DNA of 37,984 nucleotides from Actinotalea ferrariae (GTDB lineage Bacteria > Actinomycetota > Actinomycetes > Actinomycetales > Cellulomonadaceae). Numbering within the stretch: position 1 is the first letter of the stretch; every line of letters begins with the position of its first letter. The stretch spans positions 1 to 37,984 of the forward strand of contig NZ_JACVQL010000147.1 of the NCBI RefSeq assembly GCF_019733465.1, written 5' to 3'. The notes under the pieces are model-generated. The model was not told where the DNA came from, searched no databases, and was given only the letters and a program-made list of their open reading frames with translations. The position numbers and the translations under genes are program-made. This document shows, piece after piece, positions 1 through 29,182 of this stretch.

Positions 1-3000
1 AGCCCGCGCCCCGCGCGCCAGAAGGCGACGTCGTCGGGCGTTGCGCGGAGCGCGCTCAGCACCTCGTGCCAGGCGGCCGCCAGGCGCCGGACGCCCTCGA
101 CCGTGCCCCACGGCAGGTCCTGCCCGCCGTCGACGAGCGCCTCGGTCGCGCCGTCGATGCGGGCGTCACCCATCGCGGCGAGCGCCGACGTCGCCTGCCA
201 GCGGCGGATCGCCTGGTCGACCGGCACGGCGGCCTCGACGTCGAGCGGGTTCCAGCCGAACGGCAGGAACAGCCCCGGCAGCGCGCCGACGTACTGCGCG
301 AGCTGCATGCCCGCCGCCCGCGCGCCGACCAGGCCCGTGAGCAGCGGCGTCAGCTGGTCGAGCGGCACCTCGGCGTCGGGCCGCACCGTCGCGGCGACCT
401 GCGCGAGCACGGCGCGGCGACGCTTCTTGCGGCCGAGGAAGAACGACGCGTCGGCTGCCGTGGACGCGGCGAGCGCGGCGTCCAGGTCGAGCGCCATGGC
501 GTCGGGCGTGAACGGCCCGAGGCGCGAGGCGTACGTGGCGCGGTGCTGGTCGAGCGCCTGCCGCACCTGCGCGGCCTGCTCGGCCCACTGCGGCCCGACG
601 ATGCGCCGTGCCTCCGACGTCGGCGCGAGCCGCTGGCCCGCGCTCGCGTCGAGCCACTCGGCCACCTGGTCGAGGTGCTCGGGCGCGGTCGCGAGGTCGA
701 GCACCGGTCGCAGCGGAATGTCCGCGAGTGCGGCGTCGGCGGCGAGCACCTCGTCGACCGCGGCCGCGACGCGCTGCGGCACGATCGCCTCGGGCCCGCT
801 CAGCCCGGCCAGCCGCCACGGGCTCGTCGCCGGCGCACCGCCCAGGTCGTGCAGCGCGTGGGCGATGTCGCGGGCGGCGTCGTACACGTCGGCCGGCGGG
901 ACCGTGCCGAGCACGAGCGTCGTCGGGAGCTGCGGCAGGGCGTCGTCGGGCACGTCGCCGCGCTCGCGCAGGCTCAGCGCGACCTGCCGCGCGTCCCACG
1001 CGGACAGCCCGGCCGGTCCTTCGTCGTGGAGCTGGCGCGGGTAGCGGCTGAGGTTCTCGGTGAGCGAGCGGTAGGAGTCGCGCAGCGTCTCCCACGCGGG
1101 CGAGCGGTCGGAGTCGTGCTCAATGGCGCGCAGCAGCTGGCTGCGCACCGCGTTGATCGTCTGGTTGCGGCCGTGCAGGTCGAGGGAGAAGACGCCGAGG
1201 CCGACGTCGTCCAGGCGCCGCTTCACGACGTCGAGCGCGGCCTGCTTCTCGGCGACGAACAGCACGCTGCGCCCGTGCGCGAGGCAGTCGGCGACGAGGT
1301 TGGTGATGGTCTGCGACTTGCCCGTACCGGGTGGCCCCTCGAGCACGAACGACCGGCCGGCCCGCGCCCAGCGCACGGCCTCGATCTGCGAGCCGTCGGC
1401 GGCGACGGGCAGGAACGTCGTGGCCTCGGCGGTCGGATCAGGCTCGGGCTCGGGCGCCTCGTCGAGGAACGGCAGGCCGGGCGTCTCGACGAGGTGCTGC
1501 ACCACGGGCCGCTGGACGAAGGACCGCCAGCTCTCGGACAGGTCCTTCCACATCTCGAGCGTCGAGAACGCGAACATGCCGACGGCCGCGGTCTCCTCGA
1601 GCGCGAAGCCGCCGTGGCCGCCCGAGAGGATCGCGCCGCGCACCGCCTGGAGCGCGCGCGGCAGGTCGATGCCCGAGCCGTCCTGGCCGGGGTCGAGCAG
1701 CTCGGGGATGACGATGCCGCGGCTGACGCGCAGCTTCTCGATGAGGCAGTGGTTGGGGACGATCGTGCCCGTGTCGTCCATCCGCAGGCGCCACAGCGCG
1801 CCGCGGCCGCCGCTGAGCGTGACGGGCACGAGGAACAGCGGCGCGCGGACGGTCTTGTTGCGCTCGGTCCACGTCAGCGCGCCGAGGGCGAGGTAGAGGT
1901 TGTTGGCGCCCGTCTCCTCGATCGCCGTCTTCGCCTTGCGGGCAAGCCCGAGCATGCGCGAGGTGTAGGTGGTGGTCGGGAGCCCGACGAAGGCGCACGA
2001 CTCCTCGGTGAGGATGCGGCGCACGACGTCGGCGTCGATGTCCTGCGCCGAGCGCGCGCCCTGCTGCACGTGCAGCTCGCTGATCTGGTCGTGCGGGATG
2101 AGGGTGATCGTCTGGCCGCCCGCGACCAGGTCCTCGAGCGTGCCGAGCGCGCCGTGCGGCACGTGCACGGGCGCGCCGCTGCGCGCAGCACCAAGGTTGA
2201 GCAGCGGGTTGCGCAGCGTGAGGTCGAGCAGCGAGCGCCGCCACGCCTCGATGCGGGCGGGCCGGTCCTCGACGGGCATCGCGTGCGTGACGTCGCCGCG
2301 GATGCGCCGGCGCACCTCGGCGCGCTCGACCTCCACCTCGACGACGACGGTGTCGCCCTCGCGCCGCATGGTCGGCAGCGGCCGCACGCGACGGTGGGCC
2401 GCGGTGACGTCGAGCATGTGGCTGACCTCGTCGAGCCGGCGCGTCCACCACGGCGAGGTGGCGGCGACGGCGGCGTCGAACGCCATGGCCGACGTCGTGC
2501 CGGTGAGCTCGACCGTCTCGACGAGGCCCGCATCGATGAGCAGGCCGATGGTGCCGCCGTCGCGGACGGAGATGAGCGGGAGCTGGCTGTCGTTGACGAG
2601 GTAGCCGGCGAAGGCGTGGTTGCGCGTGACGACGACGACGGGGTGCAGGCCGGCCGACTCGAGCGCGGCCGCGTAGGCGCACGCGAGGTCGAGGCAGTTG
2701 CCCCAGCGGCCGTCGAGCACCTCGGCGTGGGAGCGGATGCGCTGGCCGGTGCCCTCGAACGACGCGGGCGCCTCGATGTAGCGGATCTCGCGCGCGGACA
2801 TCGCCTCGTAGACGGCCTGGGCGATGGCGACGGCGCGCTCCTCGCCGCCCTGGTAACCGTCGAGGTCGCCGCGGCCGGTGCTCGCCTTGAGGCGCTCGGT
2901 GGCGTCCGCCAGGAGCGCGGCGACGGCGACGTCGTTGGGGCGGATGTGGGCGGCGAGCGCCTCGGGGATGGAGAGCGCCCACCACTCGTCGGGCGGAAGA

Positions 3001-3899
3001 AGGCGGATGAGCTCGGCGGTGGTGGCGGCCTGCGTGCCGTCGGTGACGGTGAGGCTCAGGCGTGTGGTGATCGACTCGTCGAGGTGGACGAACGCCGATG
3101 GGCTCAGCTGCCAGGCGGTGAGGTGGGTGGGCACCTCGAGCGTCTCGCCGGGCGGGACCGGACCGGGCTCGACGACGAGCGGCTCGGCGACGTGGGCGTC
3201 GCCCCACGGCTCGATGGCGAGGACAAGGCGGCCGGGGTCCACCGCGGTGGGGCCGTTGTTGACGAGGCGGATGTGGAGCACGGGCGAGACGCGGTTGGTG
3301 ACGAGCGCGTAGTTGAGCGCCTCGCGGTAGATGACGACGACGTCCAGGTCGCCGACCTCGACGGTGAGGAGGCAGAAGCCGGGGCTGGGTGGGTCTTGGT
3401 CGCGGGTGGTCGGGGTCTCGTGGGTGATTGGTGTGTCGGTGCCGTCGGCGGGCGGCTCTGCGGGGTCGAGCGCGGGGCCGGCGGGGCGGAGGGCGCGGAC
3501 CTCCTCGGCGGCCTCGTCCATCGCGAGGGAGTCGAGGAGGAGGGCCATGGTCTCGAGAGCGCGGTCCGCCTCGGCGCGGTCGAGGTCCGGCACGTGCGCC
3601 CAGCGGTTGCCCGCGGCGATGAGCTCGTCGAGCCAGGCGCGCTGCGCCTGCTCGACCGGGAAGACGGCGCGCGTGTGGCGGACGATCCGCATGAGCGCGC
3701 GCGGGTCGCGCGAGTCGAGCTCGAACGGGTGACCGCGGCGAGCGGACTCGGCGGCCTCATAAAGGGACACCCAGTCCTGGTCCTCGGGGACCTCCTCGCG
3801 CATCTCGCGGTCGACCCACGGGTGCAGCGCGGCGCCGAGCGCGGCGAGGCCGCGGCCGAGGCGCTCGGCATCCGTCAGCGTGGTGTCGAGGGTCGACAT
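1..3899 (-). CDS. DUF4011-type superfamily 1 helicase, C-terminus beyond the window
   Basis: The minus-strand frame is open from an ATG at 3899 to the window edge: 1299 residues without a stop, in one frame throughout. Residues about 175-300 look like a beta-sandwich. About 330-450 resemble a transglutaminase fold, with C402 in GRWGNCLDLAC and H428 in NHAFAGY. DUF4011 begins near 550 (LLDLTLRNPLLNL around N564). A Walker A, GPPGTGKSQT, ends in K861-S862, as in Upf1-like SF1 helicases. Known relatives are about 1800-2100 residues and end in a Vsr or MTES_1575-type nuclease plus DUF3320; single-gene defence helicases of this build have been called Hhe. That end is not visible here. AGGAG lies 10 bases before the start. 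Base composition matches the core genome, unlike the divergent island next to it. The role in defence is inferred from family and context. Confidence 0.87.
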   Translation of the reverse strand, partial: MSTLDTTLTDAERLGRGLAALGAALHPWVDREMREEVPEDQDWVSLYEAAESARRGHPFELDSRDPRALMRIVRHTRAVFPVEQAQRAWLDELIAAGNRWAHVPDLDRAEADRALETMALLLDSLAMDEAAEEVRALRPAGPALDPAEPPADGTDTPITHETPTTRDQDPPSPGFCLLTVEVGDLDVVVIYREALNYALVTNRVSPVLHIRLVNNGPTAVDPGRLVLAIEPWGDAHVAEPLVVEPGPVPPGETLEVPTHLTAWQLSPSAFVHLDESITTRLSLTVTDGTQAATTAELIRLLPPDEWWALSIPEALAAHIRPNDVAVAALLADATERLKASTGRGDLDGYQGGEERAVAIAQAVYEAMSAREIRYIEAPASFEGTGQRIRSHAEVLDGRWGNCLDLACAYAAALESAGLHPVVVVTRNHAFAGYLVNDSQLPLISVRDGGTIGLLIDAGLVETVELTGTTSAMAFDAAVAATSPWWTRRLDEVSHMLDVTAAHRRVRPLPTMRREGDTVVVEVEVERAEVRRRIRGDVTHAMPVEDRPARIEAWRRSLLDLTLRNPLLNLGAARSGAPVHVPHGALGTLEDLVAGGQTITLIPHDQISELHVQQGARSAQDIDADVVRRILTEESCAFVGLPTTTYTSRMLGLARKAKTAIEETGANNLYLALGALTWTERNKTVRAPLFLVPVTLSGGRGALWRLRMDDTGTIVPNHCLIEKLRVSRGIVIPELLDPGQDGSGIDLPRALQAVRGAILSGGHGGFALEETAAVGMFAFSTLEMWKDLSESWRSFVQRPVVQHLVETPGLPFLDEAPEPEPDPTAEATTFLPVAADGSQIEAVRWARAGRSFVLEGPPGTGKSQTITNLVADCLAHGRSVLFVAEKQAALDVVKRRLDDVGLGVFSLDLHGRNQTINAVRSQLLRAIEHDSDRSPAWETLRDSYRSLTENLSRYPRQLHDEGPAGLSAWDARQVALSLRERGDVPDDALPQLPTTLVLGTVPPADVYDAARDIAHALHDLGGAPATSPWRLAGLSGPEAIVPQRVAAAVDEVLAADAALADIPLRPVLDLATAPEHLDQVAEWLDASAGQRLAPTSEARRIVGPQWAEQAAQVRQALDQHRATYASRLGPFTPDAMALDLDAALAASTAADASFFLGRKKRRRAVLAQVAATVRPDAEVPLDQLTPLLTGLVGARAAGMQLAQYVGALPGLFLPFGWNPLDVEAAVPVDQAIRRWQATSALAAMGDARIDGATEALVDGGQDLPWGTVEGVRRLAAAWHEVLSALRATPDDVAFWRAGRG

Positions 3900-3932
3900 G
3901 CGTGCGCGGCTCCTGGGTGACTGGCTCCGGGC

Positions 3933-4099: not shown

Positions 4100-6451
4100 A
4101 TGATGTGGGTTGTGACGAGCGACCAGCAAGCTGCAAGCGCAGTTAGTTTCACCGTCGACGCTGCCCTGCTCAGAGAGCTCGGCGCGCGCCTCGTCGGACA
4201 ACCGCACATCGCACTCGCCGAATTAATCAAGAACTCATACGACGCCGACGCTCGACACGTAACGATCACCTTCGACGGCCACTCGATCGTCCTGGAAGAC
4301 GATGGTCATGGTATGTCATTCGACGACTTCGTCCAGTATTGGATGCGAGTCGGCACCACGCACAAGCGCTTAGAACAACGCAGCCCCGAGCTCGCACGGG
4401 CATACACGGGCTCCAAGGGTGTAGGGCGTCTTGCCGCCCAGCTCCTCGCGACTAAGCTGGAGGTTACAAGTGTCGCACTGAGGGACAAGGCCACCAGTGG
4501 CTACGCGTCGCGGCAAACCGCGTCGGGTTCAGCTGTGCATCAACGAATCACAGCGAGAGTTGACTGGGATCGCGCCGTTACGGAGGACGAACTAACGAGC
4601 GTGACGGTTCCCGTCTCCCGCGACTCACGGCCGGAACGCTTCGCGAACAACTCACCTGTCGGTACGCGGCTGACAATGACCGGCCTTACCGACACATGGG
4701 ACGAGTCGAGCTTTCGCGGGCTAGCGCAGGAGATCTGGGCGCTCCAGCCACCATTCGACGTCAGCGACGACGACCGTGCCGCCTTCCAAGTTCAACTCGT
4801 GAGCCCATATGGAAACGTGGTCGACGAATTCGGCGCGCAGATGCAAGCCATCTTTGATAACTGGCGTTCCGTGATCATGTATCGCCTCGAGCCAGACCAG
4901 CCTGATTCTGACGTGCTCTTTGAGATCGACCCGTTGGTGGTCGTCGACGAGGACCAGCACTCCGTTGCCGGAACCATACCTCAGCATAGTCTGGCGCCAA
5001 GCAAGCTGCTCGACATCTCCATCCTTTCGCGCGATCGCGAGACCACGCCAGCCCGCTTCAAGGTACGGGTAGTCGGATGCCTCCTGGACCAATTCGAGTG
5101 CGAGATCCGCGTATTCAATCTGTCCTACCGACAGGCGAACAACGTTCGGGTCGAAGACTCGCGCCAGTACATGGCGCAGTTCGGCGGTGTGCACATCTAC
5201 GACGGCGGCTTCCGCCTGCCCTACTACGGGCCGCAGGATTGGCTCGATCTCGAGCGTGACCATGCGCGTCGCCTCAGTCGTTCGTACCTTCTACCAACGG
5301 AATTGCAAGCCGCGCGACAACTACATGACCTGCCTTCCGCAAGGCGAGTCTTCGGAACGGCGCGCATTTCGACCGCACACGAAGCGCAGGCAGCCACGCG
5401 CCATGGTCTGGACCCGCAGAGCGTTCTCGCAATCCAAGTCACGCGCGACCGCCTCGTCGACAACGGGGCATATCGCACCCTCCGGCGGCTCATACGGATC
5501 GGCCTCGACCTCTACGCGGACGGGGTACATCGCGCCCCGAAGCTTGCGTCAACCGGAAGCGGTTCGGCAAGGCGCAAACCATCGGCGCGCTTCGAAGAGG
5601 CGCGCGCGACCTTGGAAGCCGCTCGTGACCAGCTGGACGACAGGGTATATCAAACACTCACCGACAACATCGAAGATGCGGCGATCTCGGCGCAAGAACT
5701 AGAGCGCAGAAGCGATCAACTCACGACCCTGCTTGGCTCGCTGGCGACGGTCGGAATGACGACATTGGCGTGGGACCACGAAGCGAGTAAGCAACGACAC
5801 ATCGTCATGGACACTTCTTTACGACTTCGCGAAATATGCCAGGGGCCGTGCGAACCCGGCACAATGATGCTCCTCGCGGGAATCGCCGACGAACTATCGG
5901 CGAGCGCAAAAGGCATGGACGACATAGCCTCGCTATTCAAGCCAGTTGTGACTAGAGCAAGCCGAGAAACCGTTGCTCGTATTCGCGCAAAGCCGTTCAT
6001 CCAAGCCACCGTGAGGAAGCTCCTTGTACTCGGTCGCGGAGCAACCGTGAACGTTGCCATCCCGGACGGTCTAACCCTTCCGGCTGCGCCCGTCGCGGCT
6101 TGGTCGGCGGTAGTACAGAACCTCGTTGTGAACGCATTCAACGCGGTGCTAGAGCAGCCGAGACGGCACGTTGAGATCGACGGTGGCATCGACGGTCAGA
6201 AGCATTGGATCAGGGTGCAGGACACGGGTATCGGGATCGACCTCAAGAAGGCACCGACCTACTTTGCACCGTTCGTGCGGGGCATGCAGGACGATCCGCG
6301 GCGCTCCTCGCTAGGACTTGGCGGATCGGGACTAGGCCTGACGATCGTTCGGATGATTACCGAGCCGCTCGGCGTCGACGTGCGGTTCGTTGAGCCCGAC
6401 GCGGAGTACGCTACGTCGGTGCTACTCTCGTGGGAGGCGACAACGAAATGA
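4100..6451 (+). CDS. protein with two GHKL ATPase domains, MORC-like and histidine-kinase-like
   Basis: A 783-residue protein. The N-terminal HATPase_c_3 domain has E41 and N45 in AELIKNSYDADA, D68-x-H-G-M72, and the lid SKGVGR (105-110). The C-terminal domain is a histidine-kinase ATPase: N box NLVVNAFNA (674-682), G1 DTGIGI from D708, G2 GLGGSGLGL (739-747). A helical segment before it carries WDHE with H560, in the place of a DHp phospho-acceptor but without the usual proline. All nucleotide-binding motifs look intact. The ATG at 4100 was chosen because GGAG ends 6 bases before it; GTG at 4112 is an alternative. The stop overlaps the receiver-like gene by ATGA. Two TTA codons (4223, 4370) and low GC suggest transfer. 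Likely an ATP-driven sensor or switch for the island; no target is known. Confidence 0.85.
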   Translation: MMWVVTSDQQAASAVSFTVDAALLRELGARLVGQPHIALAELIKNSYDADARHVTITFDGHSIVLEDDGHGMSFDDFVQYWMRVGTTHKRLEQRSPELARAYTGSKGVGRLAAQLLATKLEVTSVALRDKATSGYASRQTASGSAVHQRITARVDWDRAVTEDELTSVTVPVSRDSRPERFANNSPVGTRLTMTGLTDTWDESSFRGLAQEIWALQPPFDVSDDDRAAFQVQLVSPYGNVVDEFGAQMQAIFDNWRSVIMYRLEPDQPDSDVLFEIDPLVVVDEDQHSVAGTIPQHSLAPSKLLDISILSRDRETTPARFKVRVVGCLLDQFECEIRVFNLSYRQANNVRVEDSRQYMAQFGGVHIYDGGFRLPYYGPQDWLDLERDHARRLSRSYLLPTELQAARQLHDLPSARRVFGTARISTAHEAQAATRHGLDPQSVLAIQVTRDRLVDNGAYRTLRRLIRIGLDLYADGVHRAPKLASTGSGSARRKPSARFEEARATLEAARDQLDDRVYQTLTDNIEDAAISAQELERRSDQLTTLLGSLATVGMTTLAWDHEASKQRHIVMDTSLRLREICQGPCEPGTMMLLAGIADELSASAKGMDDIASLFKPVVTRASRETVARIRAKPFIQATVRKLLVLGRGATVNVAIPDGLTLPAAPVAAWSAVVQNLVVNAFNAVLEQPRRHVEIDGGIDGQKHWIRVQDTGIGIDLKKAPTYFAPFVRGMQDDPRRSSLGLGGSGLGLTIVRMITEPLGVDVRFVEPDAEYATSVLLSWEATTK

Positions 6452-7722
6452 CTGAGATGACAAACTCTGACGCCAGTGCGACAATTGAACTTCCCACGAT
6501 AGTGGTTTGTGACGACGACTCGCGGCGAGTTGAGACGTGGGCAGGGCACATCCGCGCCATCCCCGCGGTTCGCAAACGGTACGAGACGCGGCCCCTGAGG
6601 CCCGAACAGTTCGCGGCGGCCTATAGAGAACTAAAGAAGCGACAGCGCCAAGCTCGCGCAGGCGAGCTGTCGGACTTCGGTGGTGAAGCCGAGGCGATCG
6701 ACAAGGCTTCAATTGTTGTGATGGACTTTGACCTCACACCCACCAATGGGTCCGGCGACCTTGACGACACGACCCTGGACACGCTCAGTGGATCCTTCGG
6801 GGACAACCTTGCCTTTTTGACACGCTGCTACGCCACGGCCCGATTTATTGTCCTTGTCAACCAGGACTTCTCGAAGACGACTTTTGACCTCACCCACCAG
6901 AACTTCGCACTATCGAGTGCGGATCTGAACATTGCTCATGACGATCTGCGGCGCGCCGAACTCTGGACCGGGCAGTCAGACGGCATAGCGTATCGACCGT
7001 GGCATTGGCCTCGGCTGCTGGACGCACCCGACCGCCTCGCACGTCTCGCGAACGAAGTCGATCTTGAGGCGCCTGTCCTAGAGACCCTAGGGCTCGACGA
7101 CGATGAGACGTACGCTCAGTTCGCCAAAGAGCAACTTGAACTCTTCGGGGAAGCTCCGAGAGAACTCACTTTTCGCGCAGCCGCGGAGCGACTTACGCGG
7201 GCAATGAATCGGCTCAGCTTTGACGAAACGATCCCCGACTCACTGCTGCCGATGGTCGCTGTGGCCTCCGTTGCGCATTGGCTCGAACGGGTTGTCCTCC
7301 CTGGGCAAAATGTTCTTATCGATGCGCCGCATCTCGCCCATCGCCGGCCGGGATTACTCGTTGACCCGCGCCCCTCGTCATGGGGGCAGCTCTCCGACCT
7401 GTCACAGCCGGAAGCTGCCGCGGCAGCCTTCGACTCAGACTTGGTTTCTCCGGCTTGGTGCGCTCCGGTACAGCGCTGGCTCTCGCGCCCTGTCTGGCTT
7501 TGGCACTTATGTCCCCGCAGCCGAGGGCCGGTGCCTCGAGAACCCCATGTCTTCTGCGAGGACGTCTCAGCATTCCACCCGATCCACGCCGCGACCGAGT
7601 ACGTGTCCAGCGTTCCGGGACCCTTCAAGCAGCGGTTCGTTCTACGCGACGGAGTCCGAAGCGGCGGATTCGATGTTGACTACTGGCCCGAGATCAGGTT
7701 ATTTGCCGATGCCGAGGAATAG
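6448..7722 (+). CDS. receiver-like partner of the GHKL protein
   Basis: A 424-residue protein starting at ATG 6448, which overlaps the upstream stop by four bases; GGGAGG lies 10 bases upstream. Residues about 15-135 resemble a response-regulator receiver: a hydrophobic strand followed by D22-D23-D24, then SIVVMDFDL with D93 or D95 where the phosphorylated aspartate belongs, then the strand RFIVLVNQ. A helical insert of roughly 40 residues separates the first strand from the second acidic site. No DNA-binding domain was recognised in the remaining 290 residues. The tight overlap with a protein carrying a histidine-kinase ATPase suggests phosphotransfer or direct binding, which is inference. 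An in-frame TTA codon lies at 7699. It is not a standard two-component regulator. Confidence 0.6.
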   Translation: MTEMTNSDASATIELPTIVVCDDDSRRVETWAGHIRAIPAVRKRYETRPLRPEQFAAAYRELKKRQRQARAGELSDFGGEAEAIDKASIVVMDFDLTPTNGSGDLDDTTLDTLSGSFGDNLAFLTRCYATARFIVLVNQDFSKTTFDLTHQNFALSSADLNIAHDDLRRAELWTGQSDGIAYRPWHWPRLLDAPDRLARLANEVDLEAPVLETLGLDDDETYAQFAKEQLELFGEAPRELTFRAAAERLTRAMNRLSFDETIPDSLLPMVAVASVAHWLERVVLPGQNVLIDAPHLAHRRPGLLVDPRPSSWGQLSDLSQPEAAAAAFDSDLVSPAWCAPVQRWLSRPVWLWHLCPRSRGPVPREPHVFCEDVSAFHPIHAATEYVSSVPGPFKQRFVLRDGVRSGGFDVDYWPEIRLFADAEE

Positions 7723-8476
7723 CGCCACGAGTCGGGCGAGCGCGCATCAACAGCTTTTTGCTCGAGTACTCCACGCATGGGCGGCAGACGGGCAAGACAA
7801 TGCGGGTCGCCGTGGGCTACTGTCGCCCTACCTTGAGAACTTCGAGGACGGCCACGGGATCCTTGGGGTGCTCACGAAGAAGCCGCCCGTCGACATGGTC
7901 GATGCGCACAAGTGGGTGGTTGGTCGGCCAATAGAGACCGACGAGGGCAACTTGTTCCCGGTCGCCTCCGGAGCGGTGAAGATCGAAGGACGCGCTATTA
8001 TGGGGACCGTTCGACTCGCGCTACTTATTGCGGGAGACAATATCATCCGCGCCAACGGGTACCGCTTCGAGAGCGCGGAGGTTGCTGACGATGATGGCGG
8101 CATGCGTAAACCGCACACCTTCCCGCACACCCAGCCATGCAGGTCGTGGACCATGGCCGGGGCCTGCCTTCTCCATCCCGATAGTGAGCAAGACGCCGAG
8201 ACCCCGGCCTGCTGGGAATGCGAAGTGGAATCCGAAAACGGAAGGCGGGTCGCGACCGACTACTTCAACGGTCACAAGCCAGCGCTTCCCCTGCGGTGCC
8301 GAACCCTACCCGGGCTTGCTGTTGCCGCGTTGGCTGGCGTGTATGGCGCGCCTCTTGCCCGGACGATTCTCGACACCCAGAATCAGTTAACGCCGGCGGG
8401 CTGTCCCCCGGAGGTGACCGAGGACATTGACCACATCCTCGGGTTGGACGGGTCCGGCACCTTCTCCGCTGATTGA
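7709..8476 (+). CDS. unrecognised protein of the island with a possible zinc site
   Basis: I do not recognise this 255-residue protein. The start chosen is ATG 7709, which overlaps the receiver-like gene by 14 bases; the frame is open further upstream to 7220 but that part lies inside the previous gene. The ribosome site is weak (AGATCAGG). Four cysteines, C144-x8-C153-x14-C168-x2-C171, with H156 nearby, could bind a metal. The region before them is rich in short beta-like stretches. No signal peptide or membrane segment is visible. A TTA codon lies at 8387. Translational coupling places it in the same unit as the GHKL and receiver-like genes, so it is probably the effector or adaptor of that module. 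Confidence 0.7.
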   Translation: MPRNSATSRASAHQQLFARVLHAWAADGQDNAGRRGLLSPYLENFEDGHGILGVLTKKPPVDMVDAHKWVVGRPIETDEGNLFPVASGAVKIEGRAIMGTVRLALLIAGDNIIRANGYRFESAEVADDDGGMRKPHTFPHTQPCRSWTMAGACLLHPDSEQDAETPACWECEVESENGRRVATDYFNGHKPALPLRCRTLPGLAVAALAGVYGAPLARTILDTQNQLTPAGCPPEVTEDIDHILGLDGSGTFSAD

Positions 8477-8591
8477 GTCGCGACCACTCGTCTCAAAGCG
8501 GCTCCCGTCATGCGTCGGGGACGGGGGCGCCGCAGTCGCTCTTGCCGGTCCAGAGCCTGGTGATGTGACCTGACGAGCGGTCTCGGCCGCG

Positions 8592-8597
8592 TACGGT
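8592..8597 (+). promoter_or_regulatory. -10 box of a probable leaderless promoter for the methyltransferase pair
   Basis: TACGGT ends exactly 6 bases before the GTG start at 8604, so transcription would begin at or next to the start codon. CTGACG at 8570-8575 could serve as -35 with a 16-base spacer. The 127-base gap between 8476 and 8604 holds no other gene. An independent promoter here would let the methyltransferases be made without the three upstream genes. Confidence 0.55.
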
Positions 8598-8603
8598 GTA
8601 CCT

Positions 8604-10313
8604 GTGACCCACGCCGAGCCCACTAGACCCTTGCGTGTCGTGTCCTTGTTCGCGGGGGTGGGTGGTCTAGACCTCGGGCTTGAGCGCGCGGGGCTGGCTA
8701 CGGTTGAGATGGCTGAGTCGTGGGAGCCGGCGCGGCGCGTGCTCCGTGACCGATTCTCGGCAGTCGCCCTGGCCGGGGACGTCTCCACATACACTCCGAG
8801 AAGTCGCTTCGAAGTGCTGGCAGCGGGCTTCCCGTGCACCGACCTTTCCCATGCCGGACGTAAAACAGGGATCTTCGGTGCGAGTTCCGGCCTCGTGTCG
8901 CATGCGTTCAGAATCGCCGCCGAGGCACGTCCCAACTGGATCGTTCTTGAGAACGTCCCAAACTTGTTGGCGCTCCATCGCGGGGTCGGGATGCGGTACA
9001 TCATCGAAGAACTGGAGTCCCTCGGGTATCGCTGGGCTTACCGAACTGTTGATTCGCGTGCAACCGGAGTGCCGCAGCGTCGCCCGAGGGTCATAATCCT
9101 CGCCTCGTTGACACACCACCCGGAAGCGACGCTTCTCGTCGGCAGCGCCACTGCGCCGAACGCGTCGATGGGCGAGTCTTACGGCTTCTACTGGACGGAG
9201 GGCAGGAGTGGTCTAGGACTGGTGGACGGTGCAGTGCCGACTCTTAAGGGCGGCTCGACGCTCGGACTGCCCTCCGCGCCCGCTGTCTGGTTCCCTGCAG
9301 GCCCCCGGGGGCGAAGGTTCGTACTACCCCGACTCGAGGACGGCGAAGCTCTACAAGGCCTTCCTCGCGGTTGGACGCGCGCGGCCGTCGTCCCTGATGA
9401 GCCGGACCTTAGGTGGAAACTGGTCGGCAACGCCGTCACGGTCGGTGTCGGCCATTGGGTTGGGCGTTGCATCGTAGCGGCTGAGGGTACTCGAGAACTG
9501 ACAGAGCGCGCGCGCCCTGGCCTGCGTCCCGTCCCGCCTCTACCCGAACTTAACCGTCAATCTCGCTGGCCGGCTGCAGGCTTCGGAAGTGATGGCTCTG
9601 CGTGGGCTTCAGATACCTCGATGTGGCCAATGCTGATTCCCGGGCTGACGCTTGGTGAGGTCGTTGACATTGACCGGGCGACGCCCCTCTCACATCGGGC
9701 GACGAACGGTTTTCTGTCCCGCCTCGACGAATCTGGCATGAAGGTGCCGACAGCGTTCTATCGAGACCTTGAGGATCATCAGCAACGCACGCGTCCCCCT
9801 CTCACCCGGAAGTACCCCGATCCGTGGCCATCTAGCGATGCCGCACGCCGGCGGATGAAGACGCAGCGGAGCCGAGACACCAAGCCGGAAGTGGCGCTCA
9901 GGCGCGAGCTCCGGCGCCTCGGGCTCGGCTACCGCCTTCAGGTTCGACCGCTACCCAACTTGCGGGCAAGACTGGACATCGTGTTTATCGGGGCAAAGGT
10001 GGCCGTCGACGTACGGGGTTGCTTCTGGCATTCATGTCGGGAGCACGGTACGCGGCCGCGCGCGAATGCCGAACGGTGGGCCGATAAGCTTGCGCGGAAC
10101 GTAGAGCGCGATCGTACAACTGAAGGCGCTCTCACTTCGGCCGGCTGGATGGTGATCGTCATTTGGGAGCACGACGATCCGGTCGTCAGCGCAGCACGGA
10201 TAGCCCTAGAGGTGCGCAGCCGTAGGGCGAGCCTCGGCCGGACCGCCCGCTCGAGTGATCCCGCCCCGCTAGGCGCCGTGTCGGAGGCCGACGCTAGGCT
10301 TGGTCTCCCATGA
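8604..10313 (+). CDS. C5-cytosine DNA methyltransferase fused to a Vsr-type endonuclease
   Basis: A 569-residue two-domain protein. The methyltransferase part has motif I SLFAGVGGLDLG (14-25), the PC motif with catalytic C78, ENV (116-118), QRRPR (158-162) and G275-N276 of motif X; the target-recognition stretch is short. From about 410 a Vsr domain follows: RSRDTKPE with E429, D458, C473, W475 and H476, then NVERD and GWMVIVIWE. D458, C473, W475 and H476 align by spacing with D51, C66, W68 and H69 of E. coli Vsr. The fourth zinc ligand, Cys after WE in E. coli, is His here. E. coli Vsr nicks T:G mismatches left by deaminated 5-methylcytosine; in this fusion it could repair such lesions or act as a restriction nuclease. 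GTG start with no ribosome site. The stop overlaps the next start by ATGA. Confidence 0.9.
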   Translation: MTHAEPTRPLRVVSLFAGVGGLDLGLERAGLATVEMAESWEPARRVLRDRFSAVALAGDVSTYTPRSRFEVLAAGFPCTDLSHAGRKTGIFGASSGLVSHAFRIAAEARPNWIVLENVPNLLALHRGVGMRYIIEELESLGYRWAYRTVDSRATGVPQRRPRVIILASLTHHPEATLLVGSATAPNASMGESYGFYWTEGRSGLGLVDGAVPTLKGGSTLGLPSAPAVWFPAGPRGRRFVLPRLEDGEALQGLPRGWTRAAVVPDEPDLRWKLVGNAVTVGVGHWVGRCIVAAEGTRELTERARPGLRPVPPLPELNRQSRWPAAGFGSDGSAWASDTSMWPMLIPGLTLGEVVDIDRATPLSHRATNGFLSRLDESGMKVPTAFYRDLEDHQQRTRPPLTRKYPDPWPSSDAARRRMKTQRSRDTKPEVALRRELRRLGLGYRLQVRPLPNLRARLDIVFIGAKVAVDVRGCFWHSCREHGTRPRANAERWADKLARNVERDRTTEGALTSAGWMVIVIWEHDDPVVSAARIALEVRSRRASLGRTARSSDPAPLGAVSEADARLGLP

Positions 10314-11965
10314 CGCAGACTTCCACGCACTCGGCCAACGCAACCGACCAGCGGGCTGAGGCCGCGTCGGCTCACGACAAGCTAGGCGCCGTCTTTACTC
10401 GCCGCTGGATAGTCGACATGGTGCTAGACATTGCGGGCTACACCGCTACACTACCGCTGGCCCGCCACACCGCCCTTGAACCGGCATGCGGCTCGGGCGC
10501 CTTCGTAGCGGCGATGGCTCAACGGCTACTTGATTCCTGCCGAGTTTTCGGTGATGACATCCGTGCGGCCACAGGTGCGATTGTCGCCGTCGACATCGAC
10601 CACCGGGCAGTGGCGCAAAGCCGCGCCGCGGTCGAAGGCGTCCTGATCGCTGGAGGAGAATCACAAGAGACAGCGACGATGCTCTCCCGCGTGTGGGTTA
10701 GACAAGGCGACTTCCTCACGCTTGCGGAGAGTCTTCAAAAGGTTCGTTGGGTCGTCGGCAATCCGCCCTACGTTCGTCTCGAGGATGTTGGTGGGGCGAA
10801 GATGTTGGGCTATCGATCGCGCTGGACGACGATGACCGGGCGTGCCGACCTGTATGTAGGCTTCATAGAAGCAGGACTTGACCGCCTCGTCCCCGGTGGG
10901 TCGCTAACCTACATATGCGCGGACCGCTGGATGCGTAACCAGTACGGAACACGCCTGCGGCACCTGGTCGAGAAGTCGTACTCGCTTGACGCGTGCATCC
11001 AAGTCCATTCTGTTGACGCGTTTGAGGAGCGCGTTGCAGCGTATCCGGCGATCATTCGCGTTAGCGCTCAGTCTCAGGGCGCTGCGTTGGTGTGCGAAGC
11101 GCACGACACGTTCGACGCCGAGGCGGCGAACCGGCTACTCCGCATCTGGCGCGCTGGCTACGGCAGCGCGCCCGTGGATGGATCCTTCACGGCCTCTTGG
11201 ATGCGCCGCTGGTTCGACTCCAATGGCAGTTGGCCCTCTGGCTCGCCCGACGATCTGGCACTTATTGCGCGGTTGGAAAGCGAGATGCCCACACTCGAAG
11301 CAACCGGTGCGCGCGTTTCCGTTGGTGTCGCGACCGGCGCGGACGACGTCTATATCGCAAGAGAGCCCGGGGGCACCGAACGTGACAGATTGCTGAAGAT
11401 CATCACCGCGCGTGACGTCACCACAGGACAGCCCAAGTGGGGTGGCAAGTTTCTCGTGAACCCTTGGGGCCCTTCGGGCCTTGTCGCCCTCGCGGACTTT
11501 CCTGGGATGGCAGCATACCTAGACGGCGAACGGTCCCGCGTTCGAGCAAGGAGCGTCGCGAGAAGGGATCCAAGCCGTTGGTGGCGAACTATTGATCGCG
11601 TGGATCCCAGAGTAGCGTCGAAGCCGAAGCTTCTTATACCCGACCTTAAGGATCGGGTATTCCCCGTACTGGACACGGGCGAGTATTACCCATCACACAG
11701 CCTCTACTATATTACGTCGGAGGTATGGGACCTGGAGGTCCTTGGTGGCGTCTTGATGTCGGACGTGGCCAACCTCTTCGTGTCCGCGTACTCGGTCCGT
11801 ATGTCGAGTGGCTACCTGCGAGTCAGCGCCCAGTATCTACGCAGAGTCCGAGTTCCTGCGCCCGACTCCATCGATGCCGAAGTTAAAGCCGAGTTGGCCG
11901 TTGCATTCCGCGAACGCGACTTCGAACGCGCCTCGCGCGTCGCGGCAAGCCTCTACCACCGGTGA
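10310..11965 (+). CDS. N6-adenine DNA methyltransferase, Eco57I/TaqI class
   Basis: A 551-residue gamma-class amino-methyltransferase. An N-terminal KLGAVFTRRWIVDMVLD segment precedes the S-adenosylmethionine motif EPACGSGAF (57-65); the catalytic NPPY is at 151-154. The C-terminal half, from about 300, has the length and layout of a TaqI-like target-recognition domain. It methylates adenine in a sequence I cannot predict. ATG 10310 overlaps the stop of the Vsr fusion gene, so the two are co-translated. The convergent restriction endonuclease gene ends 18 bases away, which suggests that this enzyme is its cognate modification partner. No nuclease motif was seen in this protein itself. Confidence 0.9.
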   Translation: MTQTSTHSANATDQRAEAASAHDKLGAVFTRRWIVDMVLDIAGYTATLPLARHTALEPACGSGAFVAAMAQRLLDSCRVFGDDIRAATGAIVAVDIDHRAVAQSRAAVEGVLIAGGESQETATMLSRVWVRQGDFLTLAESLQKVRWVVGNPPYVRLEDVGGAKMLGYRSRWTTMTGRADLYVGFIEAGLDRLVPGGSLTYICADRWMRNQYGTRLRHLVEKSYSLDACIQVHSVDAFEERVAAYPAIIRVSAQSQGAALVCEAHDTFDAEAANRLLRIWRAGYGSAPVDGSFTASWMRRWFDSNGSWPSGSPDDLALIARLESEMPTLEATGARVSVGVATGADDVYIAREPGGTERDRLLKIITARDVTTGQPKWGGKFLVNPWGPSGLVALADFPGMAAYLDGERSRVRARSVARRDPSRWWRTIDRVDPRVASKPKLLIPDLKDRVFPVLDTGEYYPSHSLYYITSEVWDLEVLGGVLMSDVANLFVSAYSVRMSSGYLRVSAQYLRRVRVPAPDSIDAEVKAELAVAFRERDFERASRVAASLYHR

Positions 11966-11983
11966 CTGACCTTGTTCTGACAG

Positions 11984-12901
11984 CTAGAACCCCGGAGCGC
12001 TTCGACTCTCGTCCTCGCGCACGGCGAGTTCCGTTGCCGCCCATAGTTCGCGCGCTCGCACATGGGTATCGATAGGGGTTCGATCCAGCACAGCGGCGAT
12101 CATCGTGCTCATGAAATGACCGAGGGTCAGGTTATCTTGAACGCCGCCTCGGACTTGTACCGACCCCTGCCCAGGCGTCGCGTCCCATTCCGCAATCACG
12201 ACCGCTGTCGCGTCGTAGCCACGCTCGTCCTGGGCTAGCTTCGCCACGAGATCGATCAACCGCTCCGCTGCGTTGGGGGCCTCCGTCATGGCTGCTTCTC
12301 TGAGGACAAGCACATAGCCAATGGCGGCAAGCGGATGGCGGCCGCGAAGATTGTGAGCATCGCCGTAGGACTCCTCGATGCGGTTGAACGCATTGCGGGA
12401 AAGCGACGAGTCCATCCGCTTCGTCGATACAAGGAGCTCCGGCCCCCGTGCCCACTGGGAGATGACGACATCGACCTGCTTGTAGTAGGCGCGGCCCAGT
12501 ATGGAAGCGTCCGCAGACACCGCTCCACCAGCGCTCCCAGAGGTGATGCGCTGCGCAATACGCTCGCGAAGGTCCTGTGGCAGGTCCGCCAAAAGGAGGG
12601 CCACCTCCCGTGGCAGCACTCGCGGGCGCATGGGGCGGGGCCAAACTTCGTCGGGCTCAAAACCGGCACGCCGCAACTCTGCGGCGAGCCATACGTCGAC
12701 CGCCTTTGCAGGCAGGCCGGTCTGGGTGCTAACGCCATGCCGGAGCGGTACCTCGAGGAGCTTCCCGAGAAGATCTAGGTCAGGCTCGAATCGCCGTTCA
12801 TCGGCGTTCGGATCGCCGCGCCATGGTTGTGGACGGTCGAACTCGACGAGGGCATCAAACTCCCGCCAAACGAGGTCCGCCTTCTTTGGTGTCTCGGGCA
12901 C
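11984..12901 (-). CDS. putative type II restriction endonuclease
   Basis: A 305-residue protein starting at GTG 12901, with AAGGAA about 8 bases upstream. The middle holds a likely PD-(D/E)xK core: KQVDVVI with D144, then GPELLVSTKRM with E155, S159 and K161. The usual second acid directly before x-K is a serine (S159), so E155 may replace it. A conserved-looking block NRIEESYGDAHNLRGRHP follows. The fold call comes from this pattern, the size and the position next to an adenine methyltransferase. Families such as XamI (GTCGAC) pair with this methyltransferase class, but I cannot confirm membership. The gene has its own promoter region on the opposite strand, so enzyme and methyltransferases can be timed separately. 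No controller (C) protein gene was seen nearby. Confidence 0.65.
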   Translation of the reverse strand: MPETPKKADLVWREFDALVEFDRPQPWRGDPNADERRFEPDLDLLGKLLEVPLRHGVSTQTGLPAKAVDVWLAAELRRAGFEPDEVWPRPMRPRVLPREVALLLADLPQDLRERIAQRITSGSAGGAVSADASILGRAYYKQVDVVISQWARGPELLVSTKRMDSSLSRNAFNRIEESYGDAHNLRGRHPLAAIGYVLVLREAAMTEAPNAAERLIDLVAKLAQDERGYDATAVVIAEWDATPGQGSVQVRGGVQDNLTLGHFMSTMIAAVLDRTPIDTHVRARELWAATELAVREDESRSAPGF

Positions 12902-25588: not shown

Positions 25589-25708
25589 CCGGCTGCTCTC
25601 CCTTGATGCGCGCCGCGTTCACGGGTCGGTACTCAGACGACCGCCGGCGCCAGTTCTCATCGGCCTCGGGCTACGCCGCGTGGCCCCGTGGCTGTCGGTG
25701 CCTGCCGT

Positions 25709-25714
25709 TACGGT
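25709..25714 (+). promoter_or_regulatory. candidate -10 box of the recCBD operon
   Basis: TACGGT lies 36 bases before the recC start, leaving room for a leader with the perfect AAGGAGG at 25740-25746. No clear -35 was seen. Confidence 0.35.
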
Positions 25715-25750
25715 GACGGGACCGCCCACCGGCTGCGCGAAGGAGGTCCT

Positions 25751-28700
25751 GTGCTGCACCTGCACCGCTCGGAGCGCGCCGATGCCCTCATCGCCCCGCT
25801 CGCGCAGGTGCTCGCCGAGCCGGGCGGCGACCCGTTCGCGGTCGACGTCGTCGCGGTCCCCACCCGCGGGGTCGAGCGGTGGGTCGCGCAGCGGCTGTCG
25901 CACCACCTCGGCACGGGCGACGACGGCGAGTCCGGGATCTGCGCGAACGTCGCGTTCCCCTCCCCCGCGCGCCTCGTCGGCGAGGCGCTCGCGACGGTGC
26001 TCGGTATCGAGGCCGACGACGACCCGTGGCAGCGGGACCGCCTCACCTGGACGCTGCTCGACGTGCTCGACGACGTCGCGGACGAGCGCCGGTTCGGCGC
26101 GCTCGGACGGCACCTCGGCGTCGGCGAGCCCGACGGCCCGCGGCGCGGGCGGCGCCTGCAGTCCGCGCAGCACCTCGCCGGGCTCTTCTCCTCCTACGCG
26201 GCGCAGCGGCCCGCGATGGTGCGCGCGTGGGCGGCCGGCCGCGACGACGACGGCAGCGGCTCGCCCGTCCCGGACGACCTCGCCTGGCAGCCCGAGCTCT
26301 GGCGACGACTGCGCGCGCGGGTCGGGTCGCCCAGCCCGGCCGAGCGGCTCGACGACGCCGTCCGGCTGCTCACCGCGGAGCCCGGCGCCGTCGACCTGCC
26401 GTCGCGCCTGTCGGTGTTCGGGCCGACCCGCCTGCCCGAGGACCAGCGGCAGGTGCTGCACGCGCTCGCCCGTCACCGCGACGTGCACCTGTGGCTGCCG
26501 CACCCGTCTCCAGCCCTGTGGGCGGAGGTCGAGGGGGCGCGCGCGGTCACACCGGCCGGCGCCGACGCACCCCTGTGGCACCGACGCGAGGTGCCGGCGG
26601 TCGCCGCGCACCCGCTGCTCGCGTCGATGGCTCGGGACGCGACGGAGCTCCAGCTGCGCCTCGGCGCGCTCGACGGCGTCGCGAGCACCCACCACCCCTC
26701 CGCCGAGCCCGCGCCGACGCTGCTCGGTGCGCTCCAACGCCGCCTGCGCGACGACGCCCCGGACGCACCCCCGCACGCGCTCGCCGCCGACGACCGCTCG
26801 GTCCGTGTCCACGCGTGCCACGGCCGCGCGCGGCAGGTCGAGGTGCTGCGCGAGGCGCTGCTCGGCCTCTTCGCCGATGACCCGACGCTCGAGCCGCGCG
26901 ACGTCGTCGTCATGTGCCCGGACATCGAGGCGTTCGCGCCGCTCGTCGCCGCCACCTTCGGGCTCGCGCCGGCCGACGAGGCGGAGCCCGACGTGCACCC
27001 CGGTCGCTCCCTGCGCGTGCGGCTCGCGGACCGTTCGCTGCGCCAGACCAACCCGCTGCTCGCGCTGGTTAGCCGTCTGCTCGAGCTCGCGGACGGCCGC
27101 GTGACGGCGTCCGACGTCGTCGACCTCGCCGGCGCCGAGCCCGTGCGGCGGCGCTTCCGGTTCGACGACGAGGACCTCGACCGCATCCGGCAGTGGGCCG
27201 TCGACGCCGGCGTGCGCTGGGGCGAGGACGCCGCGCGGCACGAGCGGTTCGGCGTGCCCGCGCCGCAGGGCACGTGGGCCACCGCCCTCGACCGCATCCT
27301 GCTCGGCGCCGCCATGGCCGAGGACCACCGCTTCGTCGCGACCGCAATGCCGCTCGACGACGTCGACTCCACCGACGTCGACCTCGCGGGCCGGCTCGCC
27401 GAGCTGGTCGACCGCCTCGCCGCCGTGCTCGCCGACCTCGACGGCGTCCACGCACCCGCGCACTGGTTCGACGCGCTCGACCGCGCGCTGCACCTGCTCG
27501 CCGACGTCGGCCCGGCCGACACGTGGCAGGACGTCGAGGCGCGCATGGTGCTCGACGACGCGCGGCAGGGCGCCCTCGCGGGCGGCGCATCGGCACCCGG
27601 CGCGGGTGTCACTGCCAGTGACACCTCCGGGGCGGCGGCGCTGCGGCTCACCGACGTCCGCGCGCTGCTCGCGCACCGCCTGCGCGGTCGGCCCACGCGC
27701 GCCGGCTTCCGCACCGGCGCGCTCACCGTGTGCTCGCTCGAGCCCATGCGCGCGGTGCCGCACCGCGTGGTCGCGCTGCTCGGCATGGACGACGGCGCCT
27801 TCCCGCGCGGCACCAGCCAGGACGGCGACGACGTGCTGCTGCGCGATTCGCTCGTCGGCGAGCGCGACCGCCGCGGCGAGGACCGGCAGCTCTTCCTCGA
27901 CGCGATCACCGCCGCGCAGGAGAGCCTCGTCGTCCTCTACAGCGGCGCCGACGAGCGCACCGGCGCCACGCGGCCGCCCGCCGTCCCGGTCGGCGAGCTG
28001 CTCGACGCGCTCGACGCCGCCGCGGCCCCACCCGACGGCGGCCCGGTGCGGCGGCACGTCGTCGTGCGGCACCCGCTGCAGACCGCCGACGAGCGGAACT
28101 TCGCCGACGGCGCGCTCGGCCGGACCGGGCCGTTCAGCTTCGACGCGCTGCACCACCGCGCCGCCGAGGCCGCGCGCGGCGAGCGCAGCGGCCGCACGGC
28201 GTTCCTCGACGCACCGCTCCCACCCGTGGCCGAGGACGGCGCGACCGCGGGGACCGTCGACCTCGACGACCTCGTCTACGCGCTCGAGCACCCGGTCCGC
28301 GCGTTCCTGCGTCAGCGGCTCGGCGTCCAGCTGCCCGGCGAGGTCGACGAGCTCGACGACCGCCTGCCGCTCGAGCTCGACCCGCTCCAGCGCTGGGCGG
28401 TCGGCGACCGGCTGCTCACCGCGGTGCTCGACGGCGTCGAACTGCAGCAGGCCGTCGACGCCGAGTGGCGGCGTGGCCTCGTGCCGCCCGGCCGCCTCGG
28501 GACCGCCGTCCTCAAGGACGTGCACGCGCAGGTCGCGCCCGTCGCGGACGCCGCCCAGCGCTACCTCCAGCCGCCCGCGGAGACGATCGACGTCGACGTC
28601 ACCCTGCCGAGCGGCCGCAAGCTCGTCGGCACCGTGACCGGCGTCCGTGGGGAGCTCGTCGTGCGCTGCGTGTTCTCCAAGCTCGCCGCCAAGCACCGCC

Positions 28701-29182
28701 TGCGCGCCTGGATCCAGCTGCTCGCGCTCGCCGCCGACGGCCCCGGCCGGCCGCGCGGCGCCGTGACGATCGGGCGCGGCAAGAGCTCGCGGCCCTCCGC
28801 CGCGCTGTCGCTGCTCACCGCGCCCGAGCCCGAGGAGGCGCGGCGGCTGCTCGACCAGCTCGTCGCACTCCGCGACCAGGCGCTGCGCGAGCCGCTGCCC
28901 ATGCCCGTCGCCACGACGTGCGCCTACGCACGGACCCGCGCCGGCGGCGACGGCGAGGTCGAGGCGCTCGACAGCGCGCGCAAGGAGTGGAAGGACAGCT
29001 TCGAGAGCCAGGATGCGCAGCACGTGCTCGTGTGGGGTGAGGGCGCGACCCTCGCCGACCTCCAGGGCGAGCCGTCGCGCGAGGAGCAGCAGTGGTGGCC
29101 CGAGGACGGCACGCGCCTCGGCGTGCTGGCACGGCGGCTCTGGGAGCCCCTGCTGGAGCAGGAGCGGACGGAGCTCGCATGA
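25751..29182 (+). CDS. recC: RecC subunit of exodeoxyribonuclease V
   Basis: A 1143-residue protein, the usual RecC length. It opens with LHLHRSERADALIAPLA and VVAVPTRGVERWVAQRLS, characteristic of RecC. DGAFPRGTSQDGDD (near 680) belongs to the inactive helicase-like part. RecC splits the strands and scans for Chi. GTG 25751 was chosen for the family start and for AAGGAGG, which ends only 4 bases upstream; the same frame continues further up. First gene of recC-recB-recD; its stop overlaps recB by ATGA. Confidence 0.93.
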   Translation: MLHLHRSERADALIAPLAQVLAEPGGDPFAVDVVAVPTRGVERWVAQRLSHHLGTGDDGESGICANVAFPSPARLVGEALATVLGIEADDDPWQRDRLTWTLLDVLDDVADERRFGALGRHLGVGEPDGPRRGRRLQSAQHLAGLFSSYAAQRPAMVRAWAAGRDDDGSGSPVPDDLAWQPELWRRLRARVGSPSPAERLDDAVRLLTAEPGAVDLPSRLSVFGPTRLPEDQRQVLHALARHRDVHLWLPHPSPALWAEVEGARAVTPAGADAPLWHRREVPAVAAHPLLASMARDATELQLRLGALDGVASTHHPSAEPAPTLLGALQRRLRDDAPDAPPHALAADDRSVRVHACHGRARQVEVLREALLGLFADDPTLEPRDVVVMCPDIEAFAPLVAATFGLAPADEAEPDVHPGRSLRVRLADRSLRQTNPLLALVSRLLELADGRVTASDVVDLAGAEPVRRRFRFDDEDLDRIRQWAVDAGVRWGEDAARHERFGVPAPQGTWATALDRILLGAAMAEDHRFVATAMPLDDVDSTDVDLAGRLAELVDRLAAVLADLDGVHAPAHWFDALDRALHLLADVGPADTWQDVEARMVLDDARQGALAGGASAPGAGVTASDTSGAAALRLTDVRALLAHRLRGRPTRAGFRTGALTVCSLEPMRAVPHRVVALLGMDDGAFPRGTSQDGDDVLLRDSLVGERDRRGEDRQLFLDAITAAQESLVVLYSGADERTGATRPPAVPVGELLDALDAAAAPPDGGPVRRHVVVRHPLQTADERNFADGALGRTGPFSFDALHHRAAEAARGERSGRTAFLDAPLPPVAEDGATAGTVDLDDLVYALEHPVRAFLRQRLGVQLPGEVDELDDRLPLELDPLQRWAVGDRLLTAVLDGVELQQAVDAEWRRGLVPPGRLGTAVLKDVHAQVAPVADAAQRYLQPPAETIDVDVTLPSGRKLVGTVTGVRGELVVRCVFSKLAAKHRLRAWIQLLALAADGPGRPRGAVTIGRGKSSRPSAALSLLTAPEPEEARRLLDQLVALRDQALREPLPMPVATTCAYARTRAGGDGEVEALDSARKEWKDSFESQDAQHVLVWGEGATLADLQGEPSREEQQWWPEDGTRLGVLARRLWEPLLEQERTELA

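Follow-up and report, generated by a model that had tools for sequence, protein, structure and literature searches.

A conserved predicted GHKL kinase, receiver-like protein and third protein encoded beside cytosine-C5 methyltransferase genes in Actinotalea ferrariae and other bacteria

The locus at positions 4100 to 12901 of contig NZ_JACVQL010000147.1 from Actinotalea ferrariae raises the question whether its six genes, here termed A to F, constitute one restriction-modification (R-M) system or harbor a smaller unit. The original prediction, based on the 37,984-nucleotide stretch that is referred to as the window in the following, proposed that together they could be a regulated or abortive R-M system. 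All six genes were found where they had been placed, and A, B and C overlap (A/B by 4 bp, B/C by 14 bp). The three had been described as directly preceding the methyltransferase gene D, but C and D are separated by 127 bp; D and E share a 4-bp overlap, and A-B-C and D-E form two coupled, adjoining blocks. The notion of one six-gene system was rejected on the basis of related loci, in which E is present at full length in only four of 19 cases and F in two. Judged from gene content, A-B-C is a unit of its own, with a cytosine-C5 DNA methyltransferase as its near-constant companion and E and F as guests.

Relatives were retrieved from plasmid records (two), IMG/VR (four) and contigs of GTDB genomes (ten, including one that was known before); scanning with A contributed three more A-B-C loci. 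The GTDB contigs were scanned with a single short pattern that yielded the ten relatives among 57 stretches, a count that is a lower bound. In 297 genomes from the order and 396 from the phylum, B was confined to the genome of origin, indicating that the family is rare in these groups or that the search was insensitive, and P0002 alone as query returned nothing useful from viral contigs and phage records. The 19 non-redundant loci comprise the window, three further loci from Actinomycetota, two from Poribacteria, one each from Acidobacteriota, Pseudomonadota, Chloroflexota, Thermomicrobiota, Latescibacterota and Gemmatimonadota, and seven viral contigs, the bacterial loci spanning eight named phyla; four pairs of near relatives (L007/L008, L011/L012, L016/L018 and L023/L024) mean that independent events are fewer than 19.

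Genes A and B are present at all 19 loci, A being a 128-residue remnant in L006. Gene C lies directly downstream of B, and the order A-B-C is kept, in 18 of the 19; in L006, C is absent and an apparent transposase gene follows instead. In L002, an Ornithinimicrobium plasmid, A and B (7642-11187) are broken into several frames through either sequencing error or decay. A C5-methyltransferase is encoded nearby in 17 of the 19 loci, the exceptions being the remnant L006 and L011, where the contig ends right after C. It is found upstream or downstream of A-B-C and on the same or, at seven loci, the opposite strand; its position and strand vary, while the triplet stays constant. A chance neighborhood of A, B and C was rejected in view of this joint recurrence. 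Occurrence of the three genes as often without as with methyltransferases, which would have spoken against the original prediction, was thus not seen. Its claim of a kinase-like ATPase and a receiver-like partner tied to R-M genes is supported. In L025, a partial A (42% identity) adjoins a C5-methyltransferase gene at a contig end; it is probably a further A-B-C locus and was left out of the 19.

Gene A (4100-6451, + strand) encodes 783 amino acids from an ATG at 4100 that is preceded by GGAG, and joins an N-terminal MORC/MutL-type GHKL ATPase (HATPase_c_3, 4205-4486, + strand, Pfam E 2.3e-22) to a C-terminal histidine-kinase core with its ATP-binding domain (HATPase_c, 6107-6397, + strand, Pfam E 9e-19). 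A conserved region of about residues 130-470 follows the N-terminal domain. Both domains were matched by all 14 A proteins scanned. When 14 A proteins were aligned (all but L002, L006 and L022-L024 of the 19), the MORC/paraMORC GHKL ATPase motifs are present, and E36, N40, D62, G64, G66, T98-G102, G104 and R105 of the N-terminal ATPase are invariant, as are N669, N673, D703, G705, G707, G736, G737, G739 and G741 of HATPase_c. The predicted phospho-accepting histidine, H555 in P0001 numbering (checked codon 5777-5779, + strand), is His in all 14, followed by Glu in twelve and Gln in two. The family HEF_HK (PF19191) was not matched by the window protein at E<=1, and by one of the 14 A proteins (E 0.0063), while A aligned with a kinase encoded beside a PF19192 protein over 200 columns, His on His (hhalign E 3.7e-8), a sign of remote homology.

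Gene B (6448-7722, + strand) specifies a receiver-like domain at about residues 17-190 and a C-terminal half without assigned kind. Among 15 of the 19 B proteins that were aligned (L002, L003, L019 and L022 left out), D22 is kept in 15, D23 in 14 and D93, the predicted phosphorylation site (checked codon 6724-6726, + strand), in 15. In the AlphaFold2 (AF2) model (predicted local distance difference test, pLDDT, 83.1; predicted template modeling score, pTM, 0.85), D22/D23 directly follow beta1 and D93 ends beta3, such that the acid pair, phospho-Asp and beta-alpha order of a canonical receiver (PF00072) are all found by alignment and model. Residues 1-100 align with receiver-like partners of a sister clade (E 6.7e-6, prob 85). 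With window B, Pfam returned only a sub-threshold match to DUF1830 (E 0.058), PADLOC nothing and NCBIfam nothing above cut-off; PF00072 was matched by none of 16 B proteins, and Response_reg_2 (PF19192) at E<=1 by none of the 16 and by no protein of the genome of origin. A PDB sequence search gave no useful match, and PHROGs gave nothing for B of three loci. Membership of B in Response_reg_2 was rejected on the absence of PF19192 matches and on the profile comparison given below.

Gene C (7709-8476, + strand) encodes the third protein, which has no recognised fold and carries the motif RxE...HxxxHxQ. Its signature (R119, E121, H136, H140 and Q142; 8063-8134, + strand, placed by alignment and with codons checked) is invariant, together with P191, in all of the 16 C proteins that were aligned out of 18; L003 and L023 were left out, and in an earlier alignment L003 C keeps the R, E, H, H and Q. 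No cysteine is invariant in the 16, so that the earlier description of C as a Cys protein did not survive comparison with its relatives, and a conserved cysteine or zinc protein was rejected. The AF2 model is of moderate quality (pLDDT 71.5, pTM 0.75) and has two predicted strands that carry the invariant R-E and H-Q, the remaining His lying between them. Foldseek with this model returned nothing at E<=0.001, a PDB sequence search no useful match, and PHROGs nothing for C of three loci. If the signalling/effector reading given below holds, this conserved family with its invariant R-E-H-H-Q set would be a direct target for biochemistry.

In a tree of 75 A-type proteins, calculated by a quick method without L002 and L006 (broken A), L025 (partial) and L020 and L021 (duplicates), the A proteins of 17 A-B-C loci form one clade (Shimodaira-Hasegawa approximate likelihood ratio test 100), and the nearest relatives of window A are actinobacterial. 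Of the 59 other A-type loci, 55 have a gene downstream of A, which mostly appears receiver-like by eye, and an acid pair was found in 52 of the 55 by a permissive pattern; this count, like those for the C-like and HNH motifs below, is without a shuffled control. PF00072 was matched below cut-off by three of ten tested partners of the wider superfamily. Within the 31-row clade that holds A-B-C, a gene with a C-like motif, [H/R]x[D/E]...[H/K]Px[F/Y/C]Hx[Q/H], immediately follows the receiver-like gene in twelve of the remaining 14 rows (two identical). Profile comparison of C with these counterparts gave P 0.0022 and prob 13 (vs. 0.62 with HNH-type proteins), while the sister third-gene families matched each other better (2.7e-5 and 3.3e-13); the link between C and its sister counterparts, weak on profile evidence alone, draws also on position and on the shared motif.

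Another clade, of ten rows, has a gene for a protein with the HNH-type motif CxYC...DHF after the receiver-like gene in nine rows, the contig of the tenth (L049) ending at A, and the receiver-like partner has 209-225 residues. In a PDB sequence search, the HNH-type protein came closest to the HNH protein of retron Ec78, without significance (E 0.78). In L040 and L069, the gene that stands directly at the third place encodes Vsr. Genes for a GHKL kinase, a short receiver-like protein and an HNH-type protein stand in a row on viral contigs (L042, L044, L046, L050, L051, L064, L080, L081 and L083), which may represent a simpler related system that is perhaps easier to test. In L033, L034 and L035, an A-type GHKL gene is followed about 0.7 kb further on by a gene resembling the metallo-beta-lactamase fold (HTDxDH, by eye).

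With regard to known systems, the window shares with type II R-M accompanied by Vsr (Dcm/Vsr) a C5-methyltransferase-Vsr fusion (D) and a type II-like adenine methyltransferase (E), but to our knowledge the A-B-C module is not part of known type II systems. Detocs is a two-component defence system in which a cytosolic kinase and a receiver pass a signal to an effector, as envisaged here for A-B-C; unlike the window, it has a nucleosidase effector and a different sensor, and it is not known to include a methyltransferase. The Shedu protein VcSduA resembles A-B-C in that its GHKL ATPase is thought to control a nuclease, but it is one fused protein, and the accessible part of its description mentions neither a kinase core nor a receiver (PMC12137116). 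The paraMORC/MORC GHKL ATPases of R-M systems described in the accessible part of PMC2292703 resemble A as MORC-like ATPases encoded among methyltransferase and Vsr genes; A differs by its added histidine-kinase ATPase and receiver-like partner, there is no helicase among genes A-F, and the words receiver and CheY are absent from the main text of that paper. A-B also resembles the HEF_HK/Response_reg_2 pairs, soluble proteins in which a HATPase_c_3 - His helix - HATPase_c kinase likewise stands beside a divergent receiver and which show the same linkage to genes for C5-methyltransferases, Vsr and type II R-M. The accessible part of PMC8011034 (2021) predicts this pairing of GHKL kinase and receiver together with its association with C5-methyltransferase, Vsr and HNH genes, and speculates that the pairs signal to R-M systems. 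The general pairing had thus been described already, contrary to the original prediction that the combination matches no nameable system. A-B-C differs in the lack of PF19192 matches in B and the near-absence of HEF_HK matches among A proteins, and in its fixed third protein, of which the accessible part of that paper reports none, although its neighborhoods contain orthologous groups without names (OG_20, OG_16 and others) that could include a fixed third gene. HATPase and REC are listed among domains of predicted defence systems lacking validation in the accessible part of PMC13092281, and no description of C or of this B family was found in the titles, abstract starts and passages of open-licence literature.

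What, then, could A-B-C do? Residue and domain conservation, gene order, the single clade, methyltransferase linkage and carriage on plasmids and viral contigs are directly supported, and from them we infer every biochemical step of the following reading, which we favor tentatively: A-B-C may be a three-protein signalling/effector module coupled to a C5-methyltransferase, in which a phosphorelay gates an effector against DNA without the cognate methyl mark. A would be a soluble dimeric sensor whose N-terminal MORC/MutL-like ATPase closes on DNA that is foreign or damaged, or else on a nuclease complex, whereupon the kinase core, complete in its motifs, would autophosphorylate H555 and then transfer the phosphoryl group to D93 of B. 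As B has no recognised DNA-binding output domain, the target of its long C-terminal half would be protein C or a nuclease such as Vsr rather than transcription. C would be the effector, and the methyltransferase would mark self DNA, so that the response would fire only on DNA without the mark. A working phosphorelay is favored because the kinase and receiver residues are invariant, and C as effector because nuclease-type genes hold the third place in related clades. The fuller version, an immune phosphorelay linked to R-M that combines a DNA-reading MORC-type ATPase, a fused kinase, a non-transcriptional receiver and a new-family effector C, which sister lineages exchanged for an HNH or Vsr nuclease, is possible but doubtful.

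Several observations weigh against a phosphorelay module of this kind. The usual receiver Thr/Ser is replaced by N138 in all 15 aligned B proteins and the usual Lys by Arg183 in 13 and Ala in two (both equivalences by eye), and because these residues are missing, the phosphorylation chemistry of B could be lost. Foldseek with the B model found nothing at E<=0.001 and no receiver among the 50 matches listed, the comparison of B with the PF19192 protein of L004 was not significant (hhalign E 0.15), and matches to two further groups of receiver-like partners were marginal (E 0.003, prob 10.5; E 0.035, prob 1.5). For C, Pfam and PADLOC returned nothing and NCBIfam nothing above cut-off, and no known fold or family was matched significantly; the HNH assignment in the 10-row clade relies solely on a motif. 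Only 22 of the 59 other A-type loci yielded a C5-methyltransferase. Vsr is near in only ten of the 19 A-B-C loci, and in L018 it is about 8 kb away; it therefore cannot be the universal effector.

Alternatively, A-B-C might bring about abortive infection: C would be a toxin-like effector and the methyltransferase its antidote or modulator, and cells would die or stop instead of cutting foreign DNA alone. The R-E and H-Q pairs of C on their two predicted strands could form an active site, an HNH-type protein occupies the third-gene position in a related clade, and several carriers are viral contigs; we nevertheless consider this unlikely, C having no significant match to a known fold or family. 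Still less probable is that A-B controls the timing or amount of R-M gene expression, e.g., upon entry into a new host, with C as an accessory. The methyltransferase linkage, the coupled and adjoining A-B-C and D-E blocks and the speculation in PMC8011034, as far as accessible, on signalling to R-M systems would agree with a controller, but no DNA-binding domain was recognized in B or C, and a methyltransferase on the opposite strand at seven of 19 loci is ill-suited to a simple operon controller.

The combination of a GHKL protein, Dcm and Vsr also resembles Dcm/Vsr/MutL repair, A matches MutL models of NCBIfam below cut-off, and D is a methyltransferase-Vsr fusion, which would fit A as a dedicated, MutL-like partner that helps Vsr to repair deaminated 5-methylcytosine, and the module as a repair appendage of the methyltransferase instead of a defence system. 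This is very unlikely, as Vsr is near in only ten of the 19 loci whereas B and C are nearly invariant, and as repair needs neither kinase core nor receiver. If the favored signalling/effector module proves true, restriction could be licensed by His-Asp phosphotransfer triggered by a MORC-like DNA-reading ATPase rather than being a constitutive cut-or-spare decision, bacterial two-component signalling, MORC-type ATPases and R-M would be linked, and the target of the receiver would be a protein effector rather than a promoter.

Among the remaining genes, D (8604-10313, + strand) encodes a cytosine-C5 DNA methyltransferase (DNA_methylase) fused to a Vsr-type endonuclease domain (residues 413-524; 9840-10175, + strand; TIGR00632 E 4.7e-31), a fusion supported by Pfam, PADLOC and NCBIfam. 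Gene E (10310-11965, + strand) encodes an Eco57I-type adenine methyltransferase (PF07669 E 2e-15; PADLOC MTase_II 565 bits). Its occurrence and that of F were counted within the stretches fetched around each locus: full-length relatives of E with 40-48% identity are present in L002, L003 and L013. In L022 the relative is split into two pieces (E 1.3e-24 and 2.4e-8), and a more distant relative (E 1e-47) occurs in L031, which belongs to a sister clade and not to the 19 loci. Gene F (11984-12901, - strand) is convergent to E and recurs in L003, about 6 kb from the module; in L002 an XhoI-family endonuclease gene (E 2.8e-48) stands beside E in its place. The gene that the original prediction called a restriction endonuclease is thus present, but its product is a candidate for that activity: it had no match in Pfam or PADLOC, none above cut-off in NCBIfam and no useful one in a PDB sequence search, and the conserved stretch QVDV...GPELLxSTK of its family looks like a PD-(D/E)xK variant. 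The F family occurs on 25 plasmid records, five of which were inspected. Four of these have a gene annotated as N-6 methylase immediately before F, and the fifth, from Dietzia, has a short gene annotated as methylase, a transposase gene and a hypothetical gene ahead of it. Two of these methylases were scanned and both match Eco57I models, though their relationship to window E is remote (23-26% identity over parts). Given their few occurrences, E and F look like add-ons to A-B-C, and E, probably with F, would be an adenine R-M pair added in the window. For a type II R-M assignment the methyltransferases are clear, with F and Vsr as candidate endonucleases.

Signs of mobility accompany several loci. 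L002 and L003 are plasmids, A-B-C follows genes resembling phage tail and Dam genes in L007-L009, and tail-type genes adjoin in L023 and L024, with GPD recognized by Pfam in L023. In the window, the guanine plus cytosine (GC) content is 60-65% in genes A-F vs. 74.7% in the left and 71.5% in the right flank, although flank GC also dips locally, e.g., to 65% at 23-24 kb. Two genomes of the same genus contain both flanks (left 90% and 85%, right 85% and 86% identity), which enclose about 20.5 and 12 kb there vs. 9.6 kb in the window. Beyond the flanks, blastn found no window DNA in these intervals and no window A-F protein was matched, the rightmost 0.6 kb or so of the larger interval lying outside the stretch compared and the genome that contains this interval having 9% contamination. 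The larger interval, L097 (G688:C25), contains a type III-like Mod gene (E 5e-76), and the window site looks like a cargo hotspot. By eye, Res-like and helicase-like genes lie beside Mod in L097, and a gene resembling the Fic-domain gene of the window (34728-35957, - strand, by Pfam) is present among others in L098 (G263:C1). Further away from A-F, the window encodes RecC (25688-29182) and a RecB-type helicase-nuclease (29092-32685), both by Pfam, followed within 25688-34688 by a gene that appears RecD-like by eye. The left flank is occupied by a large gene (3-3905, - strand) that is cut by the window end and whose HEPN_Swt1, DUF4011 and AAA_11 helicase-type domains are defence-like.

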